From contig JAKFWA010000118.1 in assembly GCA_021732995.1 (NCBI GenBank), forward strand, positions 62,001 to 126,000: a stretch of 64,000 nucleotides of DNA. Direction: 5' to 3'. Origin of the DNA: Planctomycetaceae bacterium. GTDB lineage: Bacteria; Planctomycetota; Planctomycetia; Planctomycetales; Planctomycetaceae. The notes beneath the pieces were generated by a model. It did no database searches. It was not told the DNA's origin and worked only from the letters and a program-made list of their open reading frames with translations. Made by a program: the position numbers and the translations under genes. Positions 11,797-62,217 of the stretch are shown one piece after another (positions within the stretch are counted from its first letter, which is position 1; each line of letters starts with the position of its first letter).

Positions 11797-13176
11797 TCAG
11801 GAGAACTCGTGGAGCGGCTGACCAGACGGCAATGCCTGAATCGGACGGCCGGCGCGATTGAGATAGCTCACCGAACCATCCACGCCCAAGTGCTTGTAGA
11901 TCGTTGCCAGCACGTCTTGCGGCGGCTTCGGGTTGGTCTTCGGGAAAGCCGCTTTCGCATCGGATTCACCGACGACGCGGCCACCTTTGATCGGGCCACC
12001 AGCCAATGCCGCACTGAAGACGTTCGGATAGTGATCGCGGCCAGCGTCGTTGTTGACTCGCGGTGTGCGACCGAATTCGCCCCAGGCGACAACGAGTGTC
12101 TTCTCCAGCAAGCCGCGTTGATGCAGGTCTTCGATCAGGGCTGAGTAGGCTTTGTCGAAGCGCGGCAGGAATCCGCGACGCAGGGAATCGAAGCCTTGCA
12201 CGTGAGTGTCCCACCACCGCAGATCGACGGTCACAACGCGGACACCGGCTTCAACCAAGCGGCGAGCCAACAGGATTCGTTGACTCCAGGCCGGAGCTCC
12301 GCAACGGTTCGACGCACCCGGATCAAACGCTGGTGCGAAGCCATAGCGTTCGCGAATTTCACGCGGTTCGGAATCGAGGTCGAAGGCTTTGCGAGCCTTG
12401 TCCGTCGACAGCAGGCCCCACGCTTGTTGCTCGAAGCGATCCATCGCGTCCATGCAGCCGGCCTGATCGACCGCTCGACGCATGTTGTCAAAGCCCTGCA
12501 ACAGCGAGCGACGGTCGCCATAACGGTTCAGGGTCACGCCATCCGCGAAGGCAAAGTTTGGTACCGAGAACGGGCCATCCTTCGCCGGGTCGTTCAGGGT
12601 TTCGAAGGCTTTGTAGGCTACTCCGAGATACGCCGAATCCGTGCCCGGCACATTCTTCGGGATCATCACGTACGCGGGCAATTCAGGGGTGAGATGCTGC
12701 AGTTGTTTGGCGGCAATCGAACCGCAGCTCGGATGGATGTTCTCGTCGGGACTCGGCCCCGAGTTGTAGCCCGTGAAGCACAACTGGTCGGCACCCGAGT
12801 GTCCCGCGTCGTGATGGAACAGACTGCGGACGATCGACCACTTATCCATGATCTGCGAGCACATGGGCAGCATGTCCGACAGTTGAATTCCCGGTACGTT
12901 GGTGTTCATCGTGCCGAACTCGCCGCGGTATTCGACCGGAGCATTCGGCTTCGGATCCCACATATCCTGATGTGGAGGCCCACCACGCATCCAGAGAATA
13001 ATGACCGAGTGGTCCTTATTGGCGACCGCTGAGTTCGCTTCGGCGCGCAGCACATTGGCCAGCGACAGACCGGCACCGGTGAAACCGATGGCACCCGCCT
13101 TCAGGAAGTTGCGGCGGTTGGTGCGAAGTGACTCGCGGAATTCCGAGCATCCCACGGAAGTTGCTTGAGCAGGCAT
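11797..13176 (-). CDS. DUF1501 (sulfatase-like fold) protein, Tat-exported
   Basis: 459 residues. A twin-arginine motif NRRNFLKAG near the N terminus is followed by a hydrophobic stretch. The DUF1501 signatures are VIILWMRGGPPHQDMWDPKP, then MWSIVRS-like and HHDAGHSGAD, and near the end WGEFGRTPRVN plus DHYPNV. DUF1501 proteins are related to the alkaline phosphatase/sulfatase superfamily and often sit next to DUF1549/DUF1553 genes. Here no such partner is adjacent. The biochemical role is not established. The start is the ATG at 13176. Confidence 0.9.
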   Translation of the reverse strand: MPAQATSVGCSEFRESLRTNRRNFLKAGAIGFTGAGLSLANVLRAEANSAVANKDHSVIILWMRGGPPHQDMWDPKPNAPVEYRGEFGTMNTNVPGIQLSDMLPMCSQIMDKWSIVRSLFHHDAGHSGADQLCFTGYNSGPSPDENIHPSCGSIAAKQLQHLTPELPAYVMIPKNVPGTDSAYLGVAYKAFETLNDPAKDGPFSVPNFAFADGVTLNRYGDRRSLLQGFDNMRRAVDQAGCMDAMDRFEQQAWGLLSTDKARKAFDLDSEPREIRERYGFAPAFDPGASNRCGAPAWSQRILLARRLVEAGVRVVTVDLRWWDTHVQGFDSLRRGFLPRFDKAYSALIEDLHQRGLLEKTLVVAWGEFGRTPRVNNDAGRDHYPNVFSAALAGGPIKGGRVVGESDAKAAFPKTNPKPPQDVLATIYKHLGVDGSVSYLNRAGRPIQALPSGQPLHEFS

Positions 13177-13467
13177 GAACTCACCGTCCAGGTAGGACTA
13201 ACGGGCGGGAATATGAGGAGAGGCTGAGCTTTAAGTCTTATCGGACAGCCCCAGTCGCATCAACAGGATCAGATCTGTCGCTGCGATAATTCGAGATGTG
13301 GGGATGAGTTACCGTCCTATCTGGCACGGGGCGAGAGATGCGTTCCCGGAAGACTCGGCCTAATATTCGCCCCCGCAGTCTGCCTTCGCCCCGCCAGCCG
13401 GGAGCTGAAACCTGCGTCGGACACCTGCCTGACAGTCGCCTTCCCACCTTACCTTATCGAGGCATCC

Positions 13468-14037
13468 ATGAAGTGGCCCATCGTCTTCGCTCTGCTGACC
13501 GCACTCTTCTGGGGCATGTACGGCCCGGTTCTCGGTTGGGCTCGTGCCGCCGAGGGAAATAATCCCTTCAAGCCTTACCTGCTGATCGGCGTCGCATACT
13601 TGGTCTGGGCGATCATCGGTGGCGCTTGCGGCATGCTCTATACCAAGGTGCCGTTTGAGTTTAGCGGCGAAGGCGTCAAGTGGGGCTTCATCGCTGGAAG
13701 TCTGGGAGCCTTCGGTGCGCTGACGCTGACGCTCGCCATGTTCAGCTTTCCGACGGGAACCAAGCCGCGTCCGGAATTGGTGATGCCCATCGTGTTTGGT
13801 GGTGCCGTGACGGTCACCGCCATCATGAATCTGATCATTTCGATGAAGTCAGGTTCCGGCCACGCGCCCAACCCGATGCTGTGGGTCGGGATCGCTGGCA
13901 TGGCCGTGTGCATCGTGGTTGTGGCGTACAACACGCCTCACGTGGCCCCCAAGAAACCTGGTGCCGCTCCAACGACAACTCCGACTCCGGTCACTGCCGA
14001 ACCGCAAACTCCCGGAGACACTCCCGCCAAGCCTTGA
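13468..14037 (+). CDS. Small integral membrane protein, DMT-transporter-like
   Basis: 189 residues with about five hydrophobic segments: the N-terminal WPIVFALLTALFWGMYGP, then YLLIGVAYLVWAIIGGACG, FIAGSLGAFGALTLTLAM, VMPIVFGGAVTVTAIMNLI and LWVGIAGMAVCIVVVAYN. A Pro/Thr-rich cytoplasmic tail closes the protein. The opening FWGMYGP resembles half of a drug/metabolite transporter of the EamA type, but the protein is too short for a full transporter. It may dimerise. Substrate unknown. The ATG at 13468 follows a 291-base spacer divergent from the DUF1501 gene. Confidence 0.82.
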   Translation: MKWPIVFALLTALFWGMYGPVLGWARAAEGNNPFKPYLLIGVAYLVWAIIGGACGMLYTKVPFEFSGEGVKWGFIAGSLGAFGALTLTLAMFSFPTGTKPRPELVMPIVFGGAVTVTAIMNLIISMKSGSGHAPNPMLWVGIAGMAVCIVVVAYNTPHVAPKKPGAAPTTTPTPVTAEPQTPGDTPAKP

Positions 14038-54234: not shown

Positions 54235-56355
54235 CTACTCGTTCCCCGGCGCGCGATAGGGCTCAAAGACGGTCTTGCGCGATTCCTCGGCGAGTTCCAC
54301 GTAGTGGCAGGTTTCGTGGTATAGCCATTCCTGAGCCCGGAGCTTGTTGCTGCTGCGCTTCTGCAGGGGTTTGTAGTGGCCGTCGGGTTGCAGCACGCGC
54401 CCTTTGACGCGGTCTTTAAAGTAGCTTTCCATGATGGTTATCAGGCGGTCACGCGAGGGAGCGTCATCCACCGGGACCAGCAATTCGACTCGGCGGTCGA
54501 GATTACGAGGCATCCAGTCGGCGCTGGAAATGAACACACGGCGGTCGCCTCCATGCAGGAAGTACAGCACGCGGGCGTGTTCCAGGAAGCGGTCCACGAT
54601 GCTGACGACTTCAATGTTCTCACTCAGTCCCGGCAGGCCCGGTCGCAGACAACACGTGCCGCGAATGTTGAGCCGCACTTTCACACCGGCCTGCGACGCC
54701 TTGTAGAGCAGTTCGATGATCTCGGGATCGACCAGCGAGTTCAGCTTGCAGGTGATCTCGGCGCGCTGCCGCTGCTTTTTGTATTGGATCTCGGCCTCGA
54801 TCATTTCGATGATGCGATCGCGCAGGCCAAACGGCGCGGCGGCGATGCGGCGAAACGTCTGGGGCTGCGAATAACCTGTCACCGCGTTAAAGAACGCGAC
54901 GGCGTCCTGACCGAGCGATTCGTCACAGGTCAGCAGACTGACGTCGCTATAGATGCGTGAGGTCTGCTCGTTGTAGTTGCCGGTGCCGAAGTGGACGTAC
55001 CGCTGAATTCCCTGCGGTTCACGGCGCACGACAATGCAGATCTTGGCGTGCGTCTTCAGGCCTTTAACTCCGTAGAAGACCTGCACGCCCGCGTGTTCGA
55101 GTGATCGCGCCCATTCGATGTTGCGCTCTTCGTCAAAGCGCGCCTTCAGTTCCACAATCACCGTCACGTGCTTGCCGCTGGATGCAGCGCGCGCGAGGGC
55201 GGCAACAATCGGACTGATGCGGCTGGTGCGATACAGCGTTTGCTTGATGGCGATGACGTCCGGGTCTTTCGATGCCTCTTCAACCAGACGGACAACCGGA
55301 TCAAAGCTCTCATAGGGGTGATACAGCACAATGTCGCGTCGCGAGATCGCCGCAAAGATGTCTTCCTGCGGATCGACGAGTGGCGACTGTTTCGGCGGCC
55401 AGTTTTCATAGCGATGTTCGGCGCCGGTGCCGTGATCAGTCAGTTGCATGAACGCGGACAGATCGACCGGCCCGGGCACTCGATAGACGTCGCGGTCGTG
55501 AACTTCGAGCGATCGCTGCAGGAAGCTAACGAGTTCATCCGACGCGGAACTGGTGATTTCCAGCCGCACGCAGTCGCTGGCGCGTCTCGCGGAGATCAAC
55601 TGCTGCATCTCGACCAGCAGGTCGGCGGCCTGATCTTCGCGAATCGCCATGTCCGCATTGCGAGTGACGCGGAATGTGGCACACTCCAAAACCTTCTCGG
55701 TCGGAAAGAACTGCCTGATGCTGTGCTCGACGATCTCCTCCAGCAGCAGATACGAGTAGCTGCCGGTGCTGGGCATGGCCACAAAGCGAGTGCGCAAACG
55801 GCCGAACGGAATCAGTGCATAGCGCGTCTCGATGACATCGGGATCGTCGACAGCTTTGCGTTCCAGTCGCACGCAGACGCTTATGGAGCGATTCATCATC
55901 AGCGGGAACTCTTCGCCGTCCTGCACCGCGATCGGCGCCAGTGTCGAGAAGATCTCATCCGCGAAAACCTGCTGGATGAAATGCACCTGCGACGGCGTGA
56001 GTTGATTGCTCTTCAAGTGCTGCAAGCCGGCAGCGACGAGGGCCGGTTCGAGTTCCTTCAGGTAGCACTCGTATTGGTCGGCAACCAACCGATGCGTGCG
56101 TTCGCTGATCGCGACGAGCTGCTGAGTCGGCGTCATGCCAGACTGGTCGAGCGACTTGCTGCCGGCTTCGTCCAGCGACTGTAAGCCGCCGACGCGCACC
56201 ATGAAAAACTCGTCCAGATTGGACGCGGTAATGGCCAGGAACTTAAGCCTCTCCAACAGTGGAATGCTGCTGTCGCGAGCCTCGTCGAGCACTCGCTGAT
56301 TGAATTCCAGCCAACTCAGTTCGCGATTGAAAAAGTTAGAATCGGGGTTGCTCAT
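54235..56355 (-). CDS. ppk1: Polyphosphate kinase 1
   Basis: 706 residues, the standard size. It reversibly makes polyphosphate from ATP. NFFNRELSWLEFNQRVLDEA opens the N domain. The phosphorylated His lies in GVKGLKTHAKICIVV, and SSADWMPRNLDRRVELLVPV is the second active-site block. VIAIKQTLYRTSRISPI is the conserved P-loop-like core. ATG at 56355. No ppx or pho gene is next to it. It is probably a single-gene transcript, the 305-base spacer upstream holding its promoter. Confidence 0.97.
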   Translation of the reverse strand: MSNPDSNFFNRELSWLEFNQRVLDEARDSSIPLLERLKFLAITASNLDEFFMVRVGGLQSLDEAGSKSLDQSGMTPTQQLVAISERTHRLVADQYECYLKELEPALVAAGLQHLKSNQLTPSQVHFIQQVFADEIFSTLAPIAVQDGEEFPLMMNRSISVCVRLERKAVDDPDVIETRYALIPFGRLRTRFVAMPSTGSYSYLLLEEIVEHSIRQFFPTEKVLECATFRVTRNADMAIREDQAADLLVEMQQLISARRASDCVRLEITSSASDELVSFLQRSLEVHDRDVYRVPGPVDLSAFMQLTDHGTGAEHRYENWPPKQSPLVDPQEDIFAAISRRDIVLYHPYESFDPVVRLVEEASKDPDVIAIKQTLYRTSRISPIVAALARAASSGKHVTVIVELKARFDEERNIEWARSLEHAGVQVFYGVKGLKTHAKICIVVRREPQGIQRYVHFGTGNYNEQTSRIYSDVSLLTCDESLGQDAVAFFNAVTGYSQPQTFRRIAAAPFGLRDRIIEMIEAEIQYKKQRQRAEITCKLNSLVDPEIIELLYKASQAGVKVRLNIRGTCCLRPGLPGLSENIEVVSIVDRFLEHARVLYFLHGGDRRVFISSADWMPRNLDRRVELLVPVDDAPSRDRLITIMESYFKDRVKGRVLQPDGHYKPLQKRSSNKLRAQEWLYHETCHYVELAEESRKTVFEPYRAPGNE

Positions 56356-56660: not shown

Positions 56661-58463
56661 CTATTCAAGCAGCGTATCGAGGTCGAATTCATCGAAGCGG
56701 GCGGCGGAGCGTTCGTCGCGATCAGGGGGGACTCGCAGGTGCAGCAGGGTGCGTTGCAGGATGCGGCCGGCTACGGGAGCGGCGATCTTACCGCCGAGAA
56801 CGCGCTGGAATGTGTGGGGTTCATCAACGACGACAAGAACAACAACCTTCGGGTCGTTGACGGGTGCGCCGCCAATGAATGAGACCACGAAGTTCTTCGC
56901 CGAGTAGCCACCGGTTTTGGGGTCGTACTTCTGCGCGGTGCCGGTTTTCCCGAAGACTGAATAACCTGGAATGCGAGCCTTAATACCGGTGCCGCGGCGA
57001 ACGACTTCAGCCATCGGTTCTTTGATCACCCAGTCAGCAATGTTCTCATCCACGGTCGCGGTCTGAATCTGCGGCGGAGTCGCCAACAGTGGGTCCGTCA
57101 TCGACACTGTGAAGGTCGTGTCCATCGTCGAACCGTCGCCGAACACGCCTTTGAGCACTCGCGGCGAGATTAGCCTGCCACCATTCGCCAGGGCGCAGTG
57201 AGCGGCAATGAGCTGCATCGGCGTCACTGCGATTTCCTGACCCATCGGAATCGAGCCGGTGGAATAGCTCGTCCACTTTTCGAGGGGATGCAGAATGCCG
57301 CTGAGTTCGCCGGGGAGTTCCACGCCCGTCGGTCGACCGAAACCAAACCGCGTGACGGCGGCATACAAGCCTTCGTTCTGCATGCGGTCGCCAATTTGAG
57401 CCATACCAATGTTACTGGACTTCACCAGCACCTCGGTCACGTTGAGCAAACCATGCTTGCCCACGTCCCGAATCTGCCGACCGCCCTGCATGCGATAGGT
57501 ACCGAAGTGACAGTTGAAGGTGTCATCAATCGTCAGCGCCTTCTGCTGCAGACCCCAGGCGACGATGAAGGGCTTGAACGTCGAACCCGGTTCATAGACG
57601 ATGCTGATGGCCTGATTCTTCCAAGCTTCTTCCGGGACGTCGCTCAGGTCGTTCGGTGAGTAAGTTGGCCGCGACGCCAGCGCGAGCAGTTCGCCGGAAC
57701 GAGGCTCCATGACGATCACCGTGGCTGCTGACGGCTTCCATTCCTCGCACAGTTTCTCCAGCTCGCGCTCAGCAAAGAGTTGAATCGCCAGATCGAGCGT
57801 TAACTGCACAGCTTGAAACTGGCGCGGCGCATCTTCGGGGGAATAGTCGACTTCGACGATCCGATTGCGCGCGTCCTTCACCAGTTTGCGTTTGCCGGGC
57901 TTGCCTTTGATCAACGGATCGAGACTTAGTTCAACGCCCGCCTTTGCTTCGCCGTCGATGTCACGCAGTCCGAGTACGTGCGCGGCCAGTTCGTCTTGCG
58001 GATACTGCCGTTGAAACTCCTCGCGAAAACCGAACGAGTTCTTCGGCCATTTCAAACTGAGAACGCGATCGACTTCTTCATCGCTGAGCCGACGCTTCAC
58101 CCACATGAAGCGTTTGTTCTTGTATTCCTCAACGCGTGTTGAGAGTTCTTCGAACTTCAGATGCGTCGCTTCAGCCAGCGCACGAATGAAGTCCGCGTCG
58201 ACTTTGAGATACTTCGGATCGACGAACAGGCTTTGCGAGGTCACGCTGCCGACGAGCAGCTTGCCGTTGCGATCCACAATGTCCGCCGGACGTGCGGGGA
58301 CTTCCACGACCACTTCGCTTTGTCGAGTCGCGAGGCGCGCCAGTTCTTCCGCCTGATACCACTGCAAATGGATCAGTCGCAGGGCGACAACGCCCCAGGC
58401 GCAAAATATCAGGCGTGTGAATGCCGACGTCCTCCATGCGTGCGGCGAATCGGCGGAAGTCAT
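56661..58463 (-). CDS. ftsI: Class B penicillin-binding protein (FtsI/PBP2-PBP3 type)
   Basis: 600 residues: a membrane helix at about 13-33, a dimerisation domain (VEVPARPADIVDRNGKLL), then a transpeptidase domain. The catalytic motifs are intact: STFK at 294-297, SSN at 349-351 and KTGT at 506-509. It crosslinks septal or elongation peptidoglycan; its place after the FtsL-like gene and rsmH points to the division form. No PASTA repeats. In Planctomycetota, which lack FtsZ in many lineages, the presence of an intact class B PBP fits the peptidoglycan now known in several members. Confidence 0.93.
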   Translation of the reverse strand: MTSADSPHAWRTSAFTRLIFCAWGVVALRLIHLQWYQAEELARLATRQSEVVVEVPARPADIVDRNGKLLVGSVTSQSLFVDPKYLKVDADFIRALAEATHLKFEELSTRVEEYKNKRFMWVKRRLSDEEVDRVLSLKWPKNSFGFREEFQRQYPQDELAAHVLGLRDIDGEAKAGVELSLDPLIKGKPGKRKLVKDARNRIVEVDYSPEDAPRQFQAVQLTLDLAIQLFAERELEKLCEEWKPSAATVIVMEPRSGELLALASRPTYSPNDLSDVPEEAWKNQAISIVYEPGSTFKPFIVAWGLQQKALTIDDTFNCHFGTYRMQGGRQIRDVGKHGLLNVTEVLVKSSNIGMAQIGDRMQNEGLYAAVTRFGFGRPTGVELPGELSGILHPLEKWTSYSTGSIPMGQEIAVTPMQLIAAHCALANGGRLISPRVLKGVFGDGSTMDTTFTVSMTDPLLATPPQIQTATVDENIADWVIKEPMAEVVRRGTGIKARIPGYSVFGKTGTAQKYDPKTGGYSAKNFVVSFIGGAPVNDPKVVVLVVVDEPHTFQRVLGGKIAAPVAGRILQRTLLHLRVPPDRDERSAARFDEFDLDTLLE

Positions 58464-58495
58464 AGAAGTGTAAACGCAGAGATGATTGAGGAACG

Positions 58496-58834
58496 CTAAC
58501 CACGATCGTTGAGTCGCGGGTCCAGCAACGGCTTGTTCCAGAACAGCAGAGGCGCGCGACGCGGCTCATCATCGTCCTGCGGACGTACGACCGGAGCCTT
58601 CTCCGGTTGTTTGAGCTGCGATCCCTTCTGCTCAATGGTCTCGACCAGTCGATCAATGGCCGCCAGCTTCTGAGATCGCAGACGCAATCGCGCGTGCTGG
58701 TCCTTGAGTACGTCCATGCGGTAATGCTGACGGCTCATCTCGCGGCGGCATTCGAGATTTTGTTTCTCGACGGCGATCCCCACCAGAGAAAGCAGCACAA
58801 TCAGAATGACCGCGAAACTGAACCGGAAGAACAT
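58496..58834 (-). CDS. FtsL-like single-pass membrane protein
   Basis: 112 residues: a very short cytoplasmic start, a membrane helix at about 3-22 (FRFSFAVILIVLLSLVGIAV), a helical coiled-coil stretch at 27-75 (RREMSRQHYRMDVLKDQHARLRLRSQKLAAI) and a Pro-rich end. This is the size and shape of FtsL/DivIC, which bridge division proteins and guide septal synthesis. Sequence similarity to FtsL is always low, so the call rests on topology and position between rsmH and ftsI. It ends 32 bases before the ftsI start. Confidence 0.7.
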   Translation of the reverse strand: MFFRFSFAVILIVLLSLVGIAVEKQNLECRREMSRQHYRMDVLKDQHARLRLRSQKLAAIDRLVETIEQKGSQLKQPEKAPVVRPQDDDEPRRAPLLFWNKPLLDPRLNDRG

Positions 58835-58883
58835 GGCACGTCGATGCAGCGGCTGAGTTTGAACCTCAGAAGAACCCGCTCAT

Positions 58884-60194
58884 CTATCGTCGAGGCGACA
58901 GATCTTCCGAGAGGGCGACTCGACTGGCATCGGCCGGAAGCCGCAGTTCGAGCCCCGGGCGCATGTCATCTTCACTCTTTAGCAGTTCTTGATTCATGTT
59001 GTAGATCTGCTCCCACCGCTCTTCTCTACCCAGGTGGTCCAAAGCGATCTTGCGCAAGCTGTCGTTTTTTCCGACTCGGTAAACTGGCAGGCCGGCTTCG
59101 CGGAAGAACAGGCCCGATTCGCTTGTCGAAGCGCGACGTACTGTCGCCGCAGACACGCGCGGTCGTCCCAGCTTCGGTTGCTCGGTCGCGGCGATCGTGG
59201 CCGCTAAGGGTTTCAATGCCTCCCGTTCCGGAACCTGCAGAATGGTTCCCGGACGCAGCAGGTCCGCGCTGGGAACCTTGCCGCGATTGAATTCATACAG
59301 GGCCAGGAATAGCCCGTGCGTGCCGTAGATCTTCTTGGAGATCTCCCAGAAGTTGTCGCCCTCTTTGACGATGTACTCGCCGCCGTTCTGATTCTCGGTT
59401 TCCAGCATGGCCGGATTCGGCCGGATTCTTTCTGGCAACGTGTCGGCAGCAATCGGTCGCGGAGATTTGAACTCGGACGGATCGGGTTGAGGCTCGTTAA
59501 CGAACGTGCTTTCCGCCGGCGTGCGTTCTTCCATCACGGGTTGAGGCTCAAAGGCTGGCAGCCTGTTGGGGCGAGTGTTGGCAGGCTTCGGCTTGACGAC
59601 TTCAGGTTCAAAAGTTGTTTCAAGTTCGGAGTTCTGATCGAGCAACGCTGGCGGCGGTTCGTTGTTCGTTGTCACCGATCGACCAGGGAACGGTTCGGCA
59701 GGCTCAATGGTCGTTTCCGTCTGGGTATCAAACAGCCCGGTGGGCTTCGGCTTAGCGGCCTCTCCCCCGAACGGATCCGTCGCGGCTTCTTGAGGCTCAA
59801 ATGTCGCGACTTGACGCTCCACAGGCTGTTGCGGTTCCTGGTTCCCACCTTCGGAGCCAAACAGTCCGGAAGTCTGAGTCGACGTAGCTGCTGTTTGAGG
59901 CTGCACCGCAGGTGCCGGATCAGGCTTCTGCTCGAATGGATCTTCTTTGTTGGGATCGCCCGCAACCACCGGATCCGAACTGCTGGGCAACGGTTTTTTG
60001 AAGAAGCTCTTCCAGACGATGACGCTGAACACCGATAGCAGCAGCGTGATCGCGATGAACGCGATGATGATCTCTTTGGAGAATCGTCGCTTCTTCTCTT
60101 CGTAGCCCCAACTGGGCGCAGCATCGCCCGCAGCGGCTTCCTGAGTCCCGTCGATTGGCTCGCCTTCAGAAGACAGAGCTTCCTCGTCGGTCAT
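58884..60194 (-). CDS. Membrane-anchored protein with two LysM domains, coupled to rsmH
   Basis: 436 residues from the ATG at 60194, whose ATGA overlaps the rsmH stop; an ATG at 60293 in the same frame would overlap rsmH by 103 bases and is less likely. A cytoplasmic N terminus is followed by a membrane helix at about 41-61 (EIIIAFIAITLLLSVFSVIVW), a 200-residue Pro/Glu-rich linker and two LysM modules at about 273-323 (YIVKEGDNFWEISKKIYG) and 370-422 (YRVGKNDSLRKIALDHLG). LysM binds peptidoglycan or chitin-like glycans. It lies where FtsL usually follows rsmH. A role in septal wall binding is inferred. Confidence 0.85.
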   Translation of the reverse strand: MTDEEALSSEGEPIDGTQEAAAGDAAPSWGYEEKKRRFSKEIIIAFIAITLLLSVFSVIVWKSFFKKPLPSSSDPVVAGDPNKEDPFEQKPDPAPAVQPQTAATSTQTSGLFGSEGGNQEPQQPVERQVATFEPQEAATDPFGGEAAKPKPTGLFDTQTETTIEPAEPFPGRSVTTNNEPPPALLDQNSELETTFEPEVVKPKPANTRPNRLPAFEPQPVMEERTPAESTFVNEPQPDPSEFKSPRPIAADTLPERIRPNPAMLETENQNGGEYIVKEGDNFWEISKKIYGTHGLFLALYEFNRGKVPSADLLRPGTILQVPEREALKPLAATIAATEQPKLGRPRVSAATVRRASTSESGLFFREAGLPVYRVGKNDSLRKIALDHLGREERWEQIYNMNQELLKSEDDMRPGLELRLPADASRVALSEDLSPRR

Positions 60195-61075
60195 TTCCGG
60201 ATTGCTACCCTGAGCTTCGCGCTCCTCGAGCGAGGATTCATCCTCGCTTCCGCCGGAGTGGGCAGAATTGGTTTTTTTGTCGTTGCGAGCCATCGTGCTT
60301 CATCCCGCAAAGCGTTTTTGACGATCCGGTCTTCCAATGAATGAAACGTGATTACGGCGATGCGTCCGCCCGGCGCCAGCAGCTCGTACAAGCCGTGCTG
60401 TAAGGCTTGTTCGAGATGCTCCAGTTCCCGATTGGCTGCGATTCGCAACGCCTGGAACACGCGTGTGGCGGGCTCCTTGCGAGCTTCTCGTTGAAACCGA
60501 CCGGGGATGGCTGCTGCCACCACCGCGATCAGGTCTTCCGTCGTCTTCAGTGGCTGCTGTTGCCGCTGCTCAACGATGGAAGCCGCGATCTCACGGCTGA
60601 AACGTTCTTCTCCGTACTCACGAAATATTTCTTCCAACGTGCTGGCGTCGGCAGTGTTGACCAGATCCTCAACCGACTGCCCCGTTCGCACGTCAAATCG
60701 CATATCCAGAGGTGCATCCACCGCGTAACCAAATCCACGATCCCGATCGGCCAACTGATCGGACGACAAACCCAGATCGAGGAGAATGCGATCGACACTG
60801 TCGAATCCCAGCTCCGCGACGACTTGTCTGGCTTCCGAATAACTGGCTTGTTTGAGGAATCGATTCGCACCAGAAACGCGTTGCCCCGCGAAGTTCAGCA
60901 TCATCGGATCACGATCGAGTCCAATCAGGACGCCATCGGGACCAATTCGCTGAGAGATCTCGGAACTATGCCCGCCCGCACCGACAGTGCCGTCCAGAAC
61001 CCGCAACCCAGGCTGCAGCTCAAGCTGCTGCAAGACCTCGCGGAGCATGACCGGAACGTGTCGAGTGGAAGACAA
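60191..61075 (-). CDS. rsmH: 16S rRNA (cytosine(1402)-N(4))-methyltransferase RsmH
   Basis: 294 residues, standard for RsmH (MraW), which methylates C1402 of 16S rRNA with S-adenosylmethionine. HVPVMLREVLQQL, the binding motif LDGTVGAGGHS, LDLGLSSDQL, ITFHSLEDRIVK and the C-terminal NPRSRSAKLRVAI are all present. The only usable start is a TTG at 61075, with no ATG in the open frame before it. In most bacteria mraZ precedes rsmH; here no mraZ is found. It heads a short division cluster. Confidence 0.96.
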   Translation of the reverse strand: MSSTRHVPVMLREVLQQLELQPGLRVLDGTVGAGGHSSEISQRIGPDGVLIGLDRDPMMLNFAGQRVSGANRFLKQASYSEARQVVAELGFDSVDRILLDLGLSSDQLADRDRGFGYAVDAPLDMRFDVRTGQSVEDLVNTADASTLEEIFREYGEERFSREIAASIVEQRQQQPLKTTEDLIAVVAAAIPGRFQREARKEPATRVFQALRIAANRELEHLEQALQHGLYELLAPGGRIAVITFHSLEDRIVKNALRDEARWLATTKKPILPTPAEARMNPRSRSAKLRVAIRK

Positions 61076-61312: not shown

Positions 61313-61350
61313 CAAAAAAGCGAGGCGACGAATTACTTCGTCGCCTCGCT
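61313..61350 (-). terminator. Intrinsic terminator of the Ala/Lys coiled-coil gene
   Basis: A perfect 14-base-pair stem (61319-61332 with 61337-61350) and a four-base loop. On the leftward strand it ends in a T run at 61319-61313. It lies 31 bases past the coiled-coil gene's stop at 61381. Confidence 0.9.
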
Positions 61351-61380: not shown

Positions 61381-62217
61381 TTACTTCGCTTCTTCCTTCT
61401 TCTCTTCAGTAGCAGCGGCCGCACCTGCGTCGTCTTTCTTTTCTTCCTTCTTCTCTTCGGTCTTGGTCTCTGCGGCCTTCTTGGCATCTTCAGCAGCCTT
61501 CTTCGCATCCTCGGCCGCCTTCTTGGCTTCATCCACAGCCTTCTTGGCAGCGGCGAGTTCCTCGTCCTTCTTCGTGATCGCCTGGTTCAGGCGAGCGATT
61601 TCGTCCTTCGACTTCTTGTCTTCGTCGCTGGACTTCTTCTTCTCAGTTTCCAGAGCGTCCTTCGCAGCCTTGATCTGCTCAGCAGCGGCAGCGGCCTGCT
61701 TCTTGGCCTCTTCGGCATTCGTCTTCGCGATGAGCGCTTGCCGCTGGGCTTCTTCGTTGGCTTTCTTGGCTTCGGCGATAGCATCCGCGGCCTTCTTGTT
61801 GGCATCGGCGGCGGCTTTGTTAGCGGCTTCAGCAGCCTTGGTCGCAGCTTGAGCGGCGGCTTGTGACTTCTGAGCGTTGGCCTTCTCAGCTGCGGCGACC
61901 TTATCGCTTTCAGCAGCCTTCGCGTTAGATGCGGCAGCGTCGGCGTCGGCCTTGGCCTTAGCGTCGTTGGCAGCGACCAGTTCGGCCTTCACCTTGGCCA
62001 GTTCAGCCTGCAGGTTCTTGACTTCGGCTTCGGCCTTATTGGCGTCTTCCGCGCGCTGCAGAGCGACGTGATAGGGCAGCAGCAGAACGGGCTTCACCTG
62101 AGCACAGCCTGTCTGGCAGGGCTGGCACGTCTGGCAAGCATCTTTTCCGGCTTCAGCAGTTTGGGCGGCAGCTGCGAGCACCGCGATCGACAACAAACTT
62201 GAAACGAACGTCTTCAT
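61381..62217 (-). CDS. Exported Ala/Lys/Glu-rich coiled-coil protein with a cysteine cluster
   Basis: 278 residues. The signal peptide ends near AQTAEAGKD. A short Cys-rich stretch follows (DACQTCQPCQTGCAQ, four Cys), then about 220 residues that are almost purely helical and built from Ala, Lys, Glu and Asp. The last part has four 7-residue repeats like KKAAEDA. No enzyme domain. It has the feel of a periplasmic fibrous or Lpp-like spacer protein. Cys may form disulfides or bind metal. Single gene with a strong terminator, suggesting high expression. Confidence 0.85.
   Translation of the reverse strand: MKTFVSSLLSIAVLAAAAQTAEAGKDACQTCQPCQTGCAQVKPVLLLPYHVALQRAEDANKAEAEVKNLQAELAKVKAELVAANDAKAKADADAAASNAKAAESDKVAAAEKANAQKSQAAAQAATKAAEAANKAAADANKKAADAIAEAKKANEEAQRQALIAKTNAEEAKKQAAAAAEQIKAAKDALETEKKKSSDEDKKSKDEIARLNQAITKKDEELAAAKKAVDEAKKAAEDAKKAAEDAKKAAETKTEEKKEEKKDDAGAAAATEEKKEEAK
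61472..61555 (-). repeat. Four 21-base imperfect tandem repeats in the coiled-coil gene
   Basis: Units at 61472, 61493, 61514 and 61535 each encode one KKAAEDA-like heptad. They differ by a few bases, consistent with internal duplication of a coiled-coil heptad. Confidence 0.8.

Follow-up and report, generated by a model that had tools for sequence, protein, structure and literature searches.

A gene for a membrane-anchored double-LysM protein stands directly behind the methyltransferase gene rsmH (mraW) in most relatives of the planctomycete studied here, and it has been retained after the loss of FtsI, FtsW and the other wall polymerases. Because it usually stays beside rsmH when those enzymes are gone, the protein probably has an envelope-tethering role of its own and is more than a mere helper of FtsI. 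The gene bears on two questions, namely the mechanism of planctomycete budding in the absence of FtsZ, and the presence or absence of peptidoglycan in lineages devoid of mur and fts genes. A 2025 survey of PVC bacteria reported that only murB, mraW and ftsK are kept throughout (PMC12283558), and a LysM protein beside mraW in such lineages is a candidate handle on their wall polymer. The LysM gene is unmentioned in five papers on planctomycete division (PMC5147048, PMC10632474, PMC12283558, PMC8567305, PMC4432640); an earlier mention elsewhere is possible.

The window, i.e. the whole stretch of 64,000 nucleotides that was analysed, carries on its minus strand a cluster comprising, from 5' to 3', rsmH, the two-LysM membrane protein, an FtsL-like protein and an FtsI-type class B penicillin-binding protein (bPBP). 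The open reading frame list and the Pfam and NCBIfam matches confirm all four genes in the places given by the initial annotation. The first gene (60191–61075, 294 aa) encodes the 16S rRNA m4C1402 methyltransferase (Pfam PF01795, 3.7e-90; TIGR00006, 296.7 bits against a cut-off of 154.3). Upstream of it, a terminator-like hairpin of 14 pairs followed by a T run (61319–61350, minus strand) closes the preceding gene, so that rsmH probably begins its own transcription unit. The rsmH, ftsL-like and ftsI genes follow the canonical order of the dcw cluster (mraZ-rsmH-ftsL-ftsI-murE and so forth) as in E. coli and other planctomycetes; the window locus differs in having the LysM gene inserted behind rsmH and in lacking mraZ and the mur genes. 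As the initial annotation had observed, neither an upstream mraZ nor downstream mur genes, mraY or ftsW are present among the cluster's neighbours according to gene inspection and Pfam. The Mur ligase domains and two SEDS genes of this genome reside on other contigs, and mraZ is still found upstream of rsmH in other members of the window's family. Two neighbours were considered as parts of the unit and rejected, since neither is conserved beside the cluster: ppk (54235–56355) and an Ala-rich coiled-coil gene (61381–62217), the latter also being separated from it by the strong terminator-like hairpin.

The LysM gene (58884–60293, minus strand) encodes 469 aa, or 436 aa if translation begins at an alternative ATGA (60194–60191). 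The ATG overlapping the rsmH stop codon that was originally proposed does exist at 60194, but a start at 60293 is more likely judging from the sequence of the congeneric locus L033, in which the sole start ahead of the transmembrane (TM) helix corresponds to 60293 (-102) and whose orthologue aligns from this upstream ATG onwards; the 3' end of rsmH and the 5' end of the LysM gene would then overlap by 103 nt (60191–60293). The next gene (58496–58834, minus strand) encodes a short protein of 112 aa in which a coil-like segment comes after a single TM helix, and in most relatives it lies between the LysM and bPBP genes, directly before the latter. It has no match to the FtsL models of Pfam and NCBIfam, whereas hhalign aligns it to the FtsL-slot proteins of classic clusters with a probability of 88%, a score that the coil composition could inflate. 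The designation 'FtsL-like' is hence retained on the basis of position, topology and the profile match, and not of a named FtsL family. The initial annotation had assigned the FtsL slot to the LysM gene; this assignment fails because in most relatives ftsL comes after the LysM gene, which thus sits between rsmH and ftsL. The last gene (56661–58463, minus strand, 600 aa) encodes a bPBP with PBP_dimer (PF03717) and Transpeptidase (PF00905) domains and, as previously read from its translation, intact STFK, SSN and KTGT motifs; it scores as an FtsI/SpoVD type (SpoVD, 386 bits) over MrdA (292 bits) in NCBIfam.

The anatomy of the LysM protein is well resolved (all of its features lie on the minus strand). 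A TM helix spans residues 75–93 (60015–60071; hydropathy 3.05, flank alignment) and is preceded by RFSKE, which the flank alignment identifies as the counterpart of an N-terminal M(T/S/A)RE-TK signature common to the LysM proteins of the relatives, PBP-less lineages included. It is followed by a proline- and acid-rich linker (59376–60014) that is predicted from composition and length to be unstructured, with about 183 residues up to the start of the modelled LysM region. The linker is longer inside the class Planctomycetia, with medians of 374 and 363 aa compared to 108 aa outside it (raw medians, kinship ignored). LysM domain 1 (residues 307–355, 59229–59375) matches Pfam PF01476 with 34.3 bits against a gathering score of 20.9. 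The second domain (residues 404–454, 58932–59084), which the initial annotation had correctly counted, is supported by NCBIfam PRK11198 (1e-16), a C-terminal Pfam scan and the fold in the AF2 model, in which the LysM folds reach a pLDDT above 90. LysM is matched in 26/26 family members and 11/11 PBP-less members, and the two folds are present in PBP-bearing and PBP-less lineages alike; domain 2 is better conserved among relatives than domain 1, which in families f3 and f5 has partly degenerated. When flanking charges were scored on charge-bounded TM segments, K and R residues were more numerous before than after the helix in 11/12 proteins from outside the class, in 10/13 from PBP-less lineages and in 14 versus 5 from the window's own family, whereas fixed 19-residue windows were uninformative (14/31). 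The charges suggest an N-in/C-out orientation and hence a periplasmic C-terminus, but the charge rule is weak here because the FtsL-like protein, used as a control, violates it.

Several known systems resemble the LysM protein in part. In Chlamydia, nlpD presumably lies near murD-ftsW. NlpD, a divisome lipoprotein combining LysM with LytM/M23, is likewise a LysM wall-binding protein tied to division genes in the same superphylum; it is septal in Chlamydiae and was not found in Planctomycetes (PMC5147048). The window protein differs from it in having a TM anchor and a long linker in place of a lipoprotein anchor and two C-terminal LysM domains, and the LytM/M23 domain that characterises NlpD/EnvC amidase activators was not detected (Pfam reports LysM only, and NCBIfam yields no peptidase-domain match). 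The closest solved structure is the LysM domain of E. coli YgaU/Kbp (PRK11198), to which domain 2 is similar both in sequence (1e-16) and in structure (Foldseek, 1.3 A over 55 residues). The window protein is nonetheless no member of that family, as it lacks the BON domain, carries a TM anchor and linker, and reaches 61.7 bits over the LysM part only against a curated cut-off of 134. The third resemblance is to FtsN, whose N-terminus lies in the cytoplasm and whose single TM helix is followed by a long disordered linker and a C-terminal glycan-binding domain. The topology is the same, yet FtsN carries a SPOR domain, which Pfam does not detect in the window protein, where LysM takes its place. 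This shared topology raises the alternative that the LysM protein is the planctomycete counterpart of FtsN, an activator of the FtsW–FtsI divisome that senses the septal wall and activates the adjacent synthase.

A search for related loci with the 7-row alignment A2 revealed the LysM gene at this position in related planctomycetes, rather than its absence there from all of them. It adjoins rsmH in 31/37 genomes of the window's family as well as in contigs of named Planctomycetaceae, Schlesneria and Fuerstiella, and other classes of the phylum show the rsmH-LysM order as well. This order is recurrent in most relatives and far beyond chance. The LysM gene is indeed a fixed, lineage-wide member of the cluster, as the initial annotation supposed in calling it particular to this lineage, but its range is wider: it occurs in the greater part of the class and also in several further groups within the phylum. 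The complete order rsmH-LysM-ftsL-ftsI in most family genomes and several other classes would suit a divisome activator, as would genome G033 (locus L101), where rsmH has been relocated and the LysM gene still accompanies ftsL-ftsI. Against this role, ftsI has left the cluster in G027, G030 and G032, two genera of the window's own family that lack the operon's ftsI (G004 and G010) keep rsmH-LysM-ftsL, and Planctopirus limnophila can do without either ftsI or ftsW (PMC6952346, PMC10632474).

Further evidence comes from five sister families, in 21 genomes of which no class B PBP, SEDS protein, class A PBP glycosyltransferase or transpeptidase was found, as judged by PF03717, PF01098, PF00912 and PF00905; a Mur ligase domain was likewise not found in 18 of these 21. 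The LysM gene has been lost from five of them, and in 14 a two-LysM gene with the shared N-terminal signature and intact LysM folds remains directly behind rsmH. The dN/dS of its C-terminal part is about 0.05–0.45, i.e. below 1 in the polymerase-less lineages. The expectation that LysM presence tracks with FtsI is thereby ruled out, and the initial proposal of a dedicated FtsI or division partner finds no support; we consider an FtsN-like activator improbable. A second alternative is that a generic envelope LysM protein hitch-hikes behind rsmH for expression only and has no connection with division or wall synthesis. The LysM-rsmH link is steadier than the LysM-ftsI link, and the rsmH genes mraW1 and mraW2 are dispensable in P. 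limnophila (PMC10632474). We nevertheless regard hitch-hiking as unlikely, since in L101 the LysM gene stays with ftsL-ftsI when rsmH relocates, and in another group (L158) a LysM gene lies between murG and murC within a full classic cluster. The L158 gene may have arisen by relocation of the gene behind rsmH or by a separate recruitment, the LysM domains being too short to tell. Second copies of rsmH served as an internal control: no LysM gene follows any of those examined, and they were discarded as hosts of a similar cluster.

On balance we lean, by a small margin over even chances, towards the LysM protein being an inner-membrane envelope tether for a GlcNAc-containing wall polymer. A short N-terminal stretch would lie in the cytoplasm, a single TM helix would lead into a long disordered linker that could span a widened periplasm, and the two C-terminal LysM domains would hold the polymer, which would be peptidoglycan where that is made; we infer the link to peptidoglycan purely from the LysM fold. 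Its job would be envelope organisation in growth or budding, as opposed to FtsI activation. LysM folds can be cytoplasmic, as in E. coli Kbp, and this counts against a tether, as do the loss of the gene from five of the 21 genomes and the possibility that gene adjacency reflects no more than shared transcription. A third alternative holds that in polymerase-less lineages the LysM protein has been repurposed for another GlcNAc polymer or an envelope glycoprotein, or as a cytoplasmic Kbp-like module. It would accommodate retention with dN/dS below 1 where the polymerases are gone, the partial degeneration of LysM 1 in f3 and f5, and Kbp as the best solved match of LysM 2; the TM flank charges, which favour an outward C-terminus, speak against it, as do the MurNAc, DAP and lysozyme-sensitive sacculi that Jeske (2015) described in Gemmata obscuriglobus (PMC4432640). 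We view repurposing as rather doubtful, and the Gemmata sacculi imply that peptidoglycan may persist via an unknown route. A broader version of the tether reading, which we put forward tentatively, is that the LysM gene might belong, so far unrecognised, to the core envelope genes of budding planctomycetes and have outlived the peptidoglycan synthesis machinery, with the tether for a GlcNAc polymer maintained. If so, polymerase-less lineages would either synthesise peptidoglycan along a pathway not yet described or carry another wall glycan. Planctopirus limnophila is genetically tractable, which makes tagging or deletion of the LysM gene possible, and the LysM pair could be used as a probe for the unknown glycan.

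The four genes lie on the minus strand in the order rsmH (60191–61075), LysM (58884–60293), ftsL-like (58496–58834) and ftsI-type bPBP (56661–58463), and an ORF listing of the window bears out the coordinates of the initial annotation. The identity of rsmH is unambiguous (Pfam 3.7e-90; NCBIfam TIGR00006 also matches). In the LysM protein a TM helix (residues 75–93) is followed by a linker rich in Pro and acidic residues and, at the C-terminus, by two LysM domains, the first detected by Pfam and the second by NCBIfam PRK11198; Foldseek finds two LysM folds in its AF2 model. The 112-aa protein has the position and topology of FtsL, and the PBP contains PBP_dimer and transpeptidase domains with all three motifs and scores higher as FtsI/SpoVD than as MrdA. 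The intergenic gaps measure just 49 and 32 nt. The unrelated gene upstream of rsmH is closed off by a strong terminator-like hairpin. The ATGA overlap with the rsmH stop noted initially is present at 60194; sequence comparison nevertheless favours a LysM start at 60293, giving a 103-nt overlap, because the protein of the window's congener (L033; 74% identity in rsmH, 42% in LysM) aligns from the upstream ATG and has no other start before its TM helix, because several further family members possess an ATG at the equivalent of −102, and because a WG(F/Y) motif immediately before the TM helix is conserved across many relatives, which indicates that the N-terminal extension is coding.

When rsmH loci from 59 genomes were retrieved and their ORFs called and classed by phmmer and HMMs, the proposed gene order recurred in relatives, with LysM adjoining rsmH in 31/37 family genomes. 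In G033 rsmH is located elsewhere and LysM remains with ftsL and the bPBP (L101), in G032 rsmH and LysM are unlinked, and for G012, G017, G018 and G020 either a contig end truncates the locus or no rsmH was found. A profile from a 26-row double-LysM alignment (A1) has one strong match per family genome (E about 1e-51 or better), except in the fragmented assemblies G012 and G018. The identical order occurs on contigs named Planctomycetaceae AM_0621, Schlesneria, Fuerstiella and Rhodopirellula sp. MAG, among others, and ftsI has left the cluster in G027, G030 and G032.

G000 has a second rsmH paralogue that is N-terminally extended (G000:C31:88881-89762; L032:4237-5781, 514-aa ORF), and many relatives harbour a second copy; no LysM neighbour was found beside the second copies of these genomes. 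The mraW1/mraW2 pair of P. limnophila and the two RsmH paralogues of Tuwongella are known cases. Three Schlesneria-like contigs (L184, L188, L203) show a second double-LysM-profile match (299–384 aa) shortly after ftsI, and in L038, L194, L201, L202 and L205 a conserved block follows ftsL or ftsI, composed of a flavin reductase, two FAD-linked oxidases and an Fe-S/CCG protein (glcDEF-like by Pfam in L051).

A PBP/SEDS/Mur survey of the same 59 genomes (37 family, 22 non-family) detected PF03717 (class B PBP), PF01098 (SEDS) and PF00905 (transpeptidase) in 37/37 family genomes and in G041 of family f6, and in 0/21 of the remaining class genomes, which represent five sister families within Planctomycetia and are termed PBP-less here. 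The class A glycosyltransferase PF00912 was found in 0/22 non-family genomes and in only 5/37 family genomes (G000, C66:5950-6471; G001; G030; G031; G032), SEDS proteins being the only known polymerases found in the other 32. The Mur ligase N-domain (PF01225) is present in all family genomes and absent in 18/21 PBP-less ones; the survey matches a published account in which Pirellulales, Isosphaerales and Gemmatales have lost mur and fts genes (PMC12283558). In 14/21 PBP-less genomes (G038, 39, 40, 42, 43, 44, 46, 47, 48, 50, 53, 55, 56 and 58) rsmH is followed immediately by a two-LysM gene of the same orientation; G037 (contig end) and G051 (weak) count as incomplete, and the other five (G045, 49, 52, 54, 57) lack the gene. 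In G038 a frameshift in the assembly breaks the gene into two frames (L074:7013-8889), reflecting either an assembly error or a pseudogene; in a close relative (L095) it is a single intact ORF. This rsmH-LysM arrangement also occurs in G241, G255, G265 and the named Pirellulales contig L214, all outside the PBP survey, and at L079:4020-9173 a 1717-aa ORF behind rsmH combines a LysM pair with a very long low-complexity stretch. A second, finer case of ftsI lost while LysM stays is provided by the family genomes G004 and G010: the long PBP2-type bPBP and a single SEDS gene are all they retain of these synthases, yet rsmH-LysM-ftsL is kept. The suggestion that LysM presence would track with FtsI is thus contradicted by 14 PBP-less genomes and by G004 and G010.

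PBP-less and PBP-bearing proteins share the LysM pair at the C-terminus (11/11 PBP-less proteins match Pfam LysM; AF2 pLDDT above 90 for both domains, with Foldseek LysM matches), the long linker and, in variants, the N-terminal signature M(T/S/A)RE-TK-(I/F/L)GL. The dN/dS of the C-terminal part in eight pairs of PBP-less genomes is about 0.05 to 0.45, a qualitative measure since dS is near saturation in several pairs.

The best supported reading, held with modest confidence, is that the LysM protein is an inner-membrane tether: anchored in the membrane, it would reach across an enlarged periplasm by its linker and place the LysM pair at the wall polymer. This orientation is suggested by the LysM domains and K/R bias, the support from which is weak because the FtsL-like control breaks the bias. 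In 24/26 of the family's FtsL-like proteins (58496–58834 in the window) the stretch following the TM helix holds more K/R residues than the one preceding it, counter to the usual positive-inside rule. Gene order suggests a natural rival, an FtsN-like activator of FtsW-FtsI, which would however have to explain LysM retention without FtsI. P. limnophila survives loss of ftsI, ftsW, mraW and pbp2, in studies that do not discuss the LysM gene (PMC6952346, PMC10632474). Returning to the tether, the median stretch between TM helix and LysM pair is 374 residues in the family and 363 in the PBP-less families, against 108 in loci outside the class (Mann-Whitney 2e-6 and 9e-6, respectively, with shared ancestry ignored) and 20 in the murG-murC type; the window linker, at 183 residues, is short for its family. 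These lengths would fit a tether spanning the enlarged planctomycete periplasm, named as a phylum trait in PMC11958385.

The component parts are of known kinds. In the searchable literature, whose coverage is incomplete, we found no account of a LysM tether inserted in the planctomycete rsmH-ftsL-ftsI cluster, nor of its survival past wall-synthase loss. Chemical evidence for peptidoglycan has been reported in Gemmata (PMC4432640), and the retained LysM protein offers a useful test object for setting this chemistry against the missing genes.

In a phylum sample of 244 genomes, A1 matches adjoin rsmH in several other families, and 40 fetched loci fall into three arrangements: the classic mraZ-rsmH-ftsL-ftsI-mur order without LysM, resembling mraZ-rsmH-ftsL-ftsI-murE of E. 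coli; the classic order with LysM farther downstream; and the window-type rsmH-LysM-ftsL-ftsI, whose loci outside the class were picked for visible adjacency, so that their number is no frequency. Loci with rsmH-adjacent LysM cluster strongly in an rsmH tree with weak deep branches, the LysM-plus-ftsI type requiring 3 changes versus 19.6 in shuffles. The second arrangement is exemplified by L158, where, inside a full classic dcw cluster, the gene of a LysM membrane protein (13052-13735) comes after murF and ftsW and is flanked by murG and murC; such a gene is possibly the source of, or a parallel to, the rsmH-linked one.
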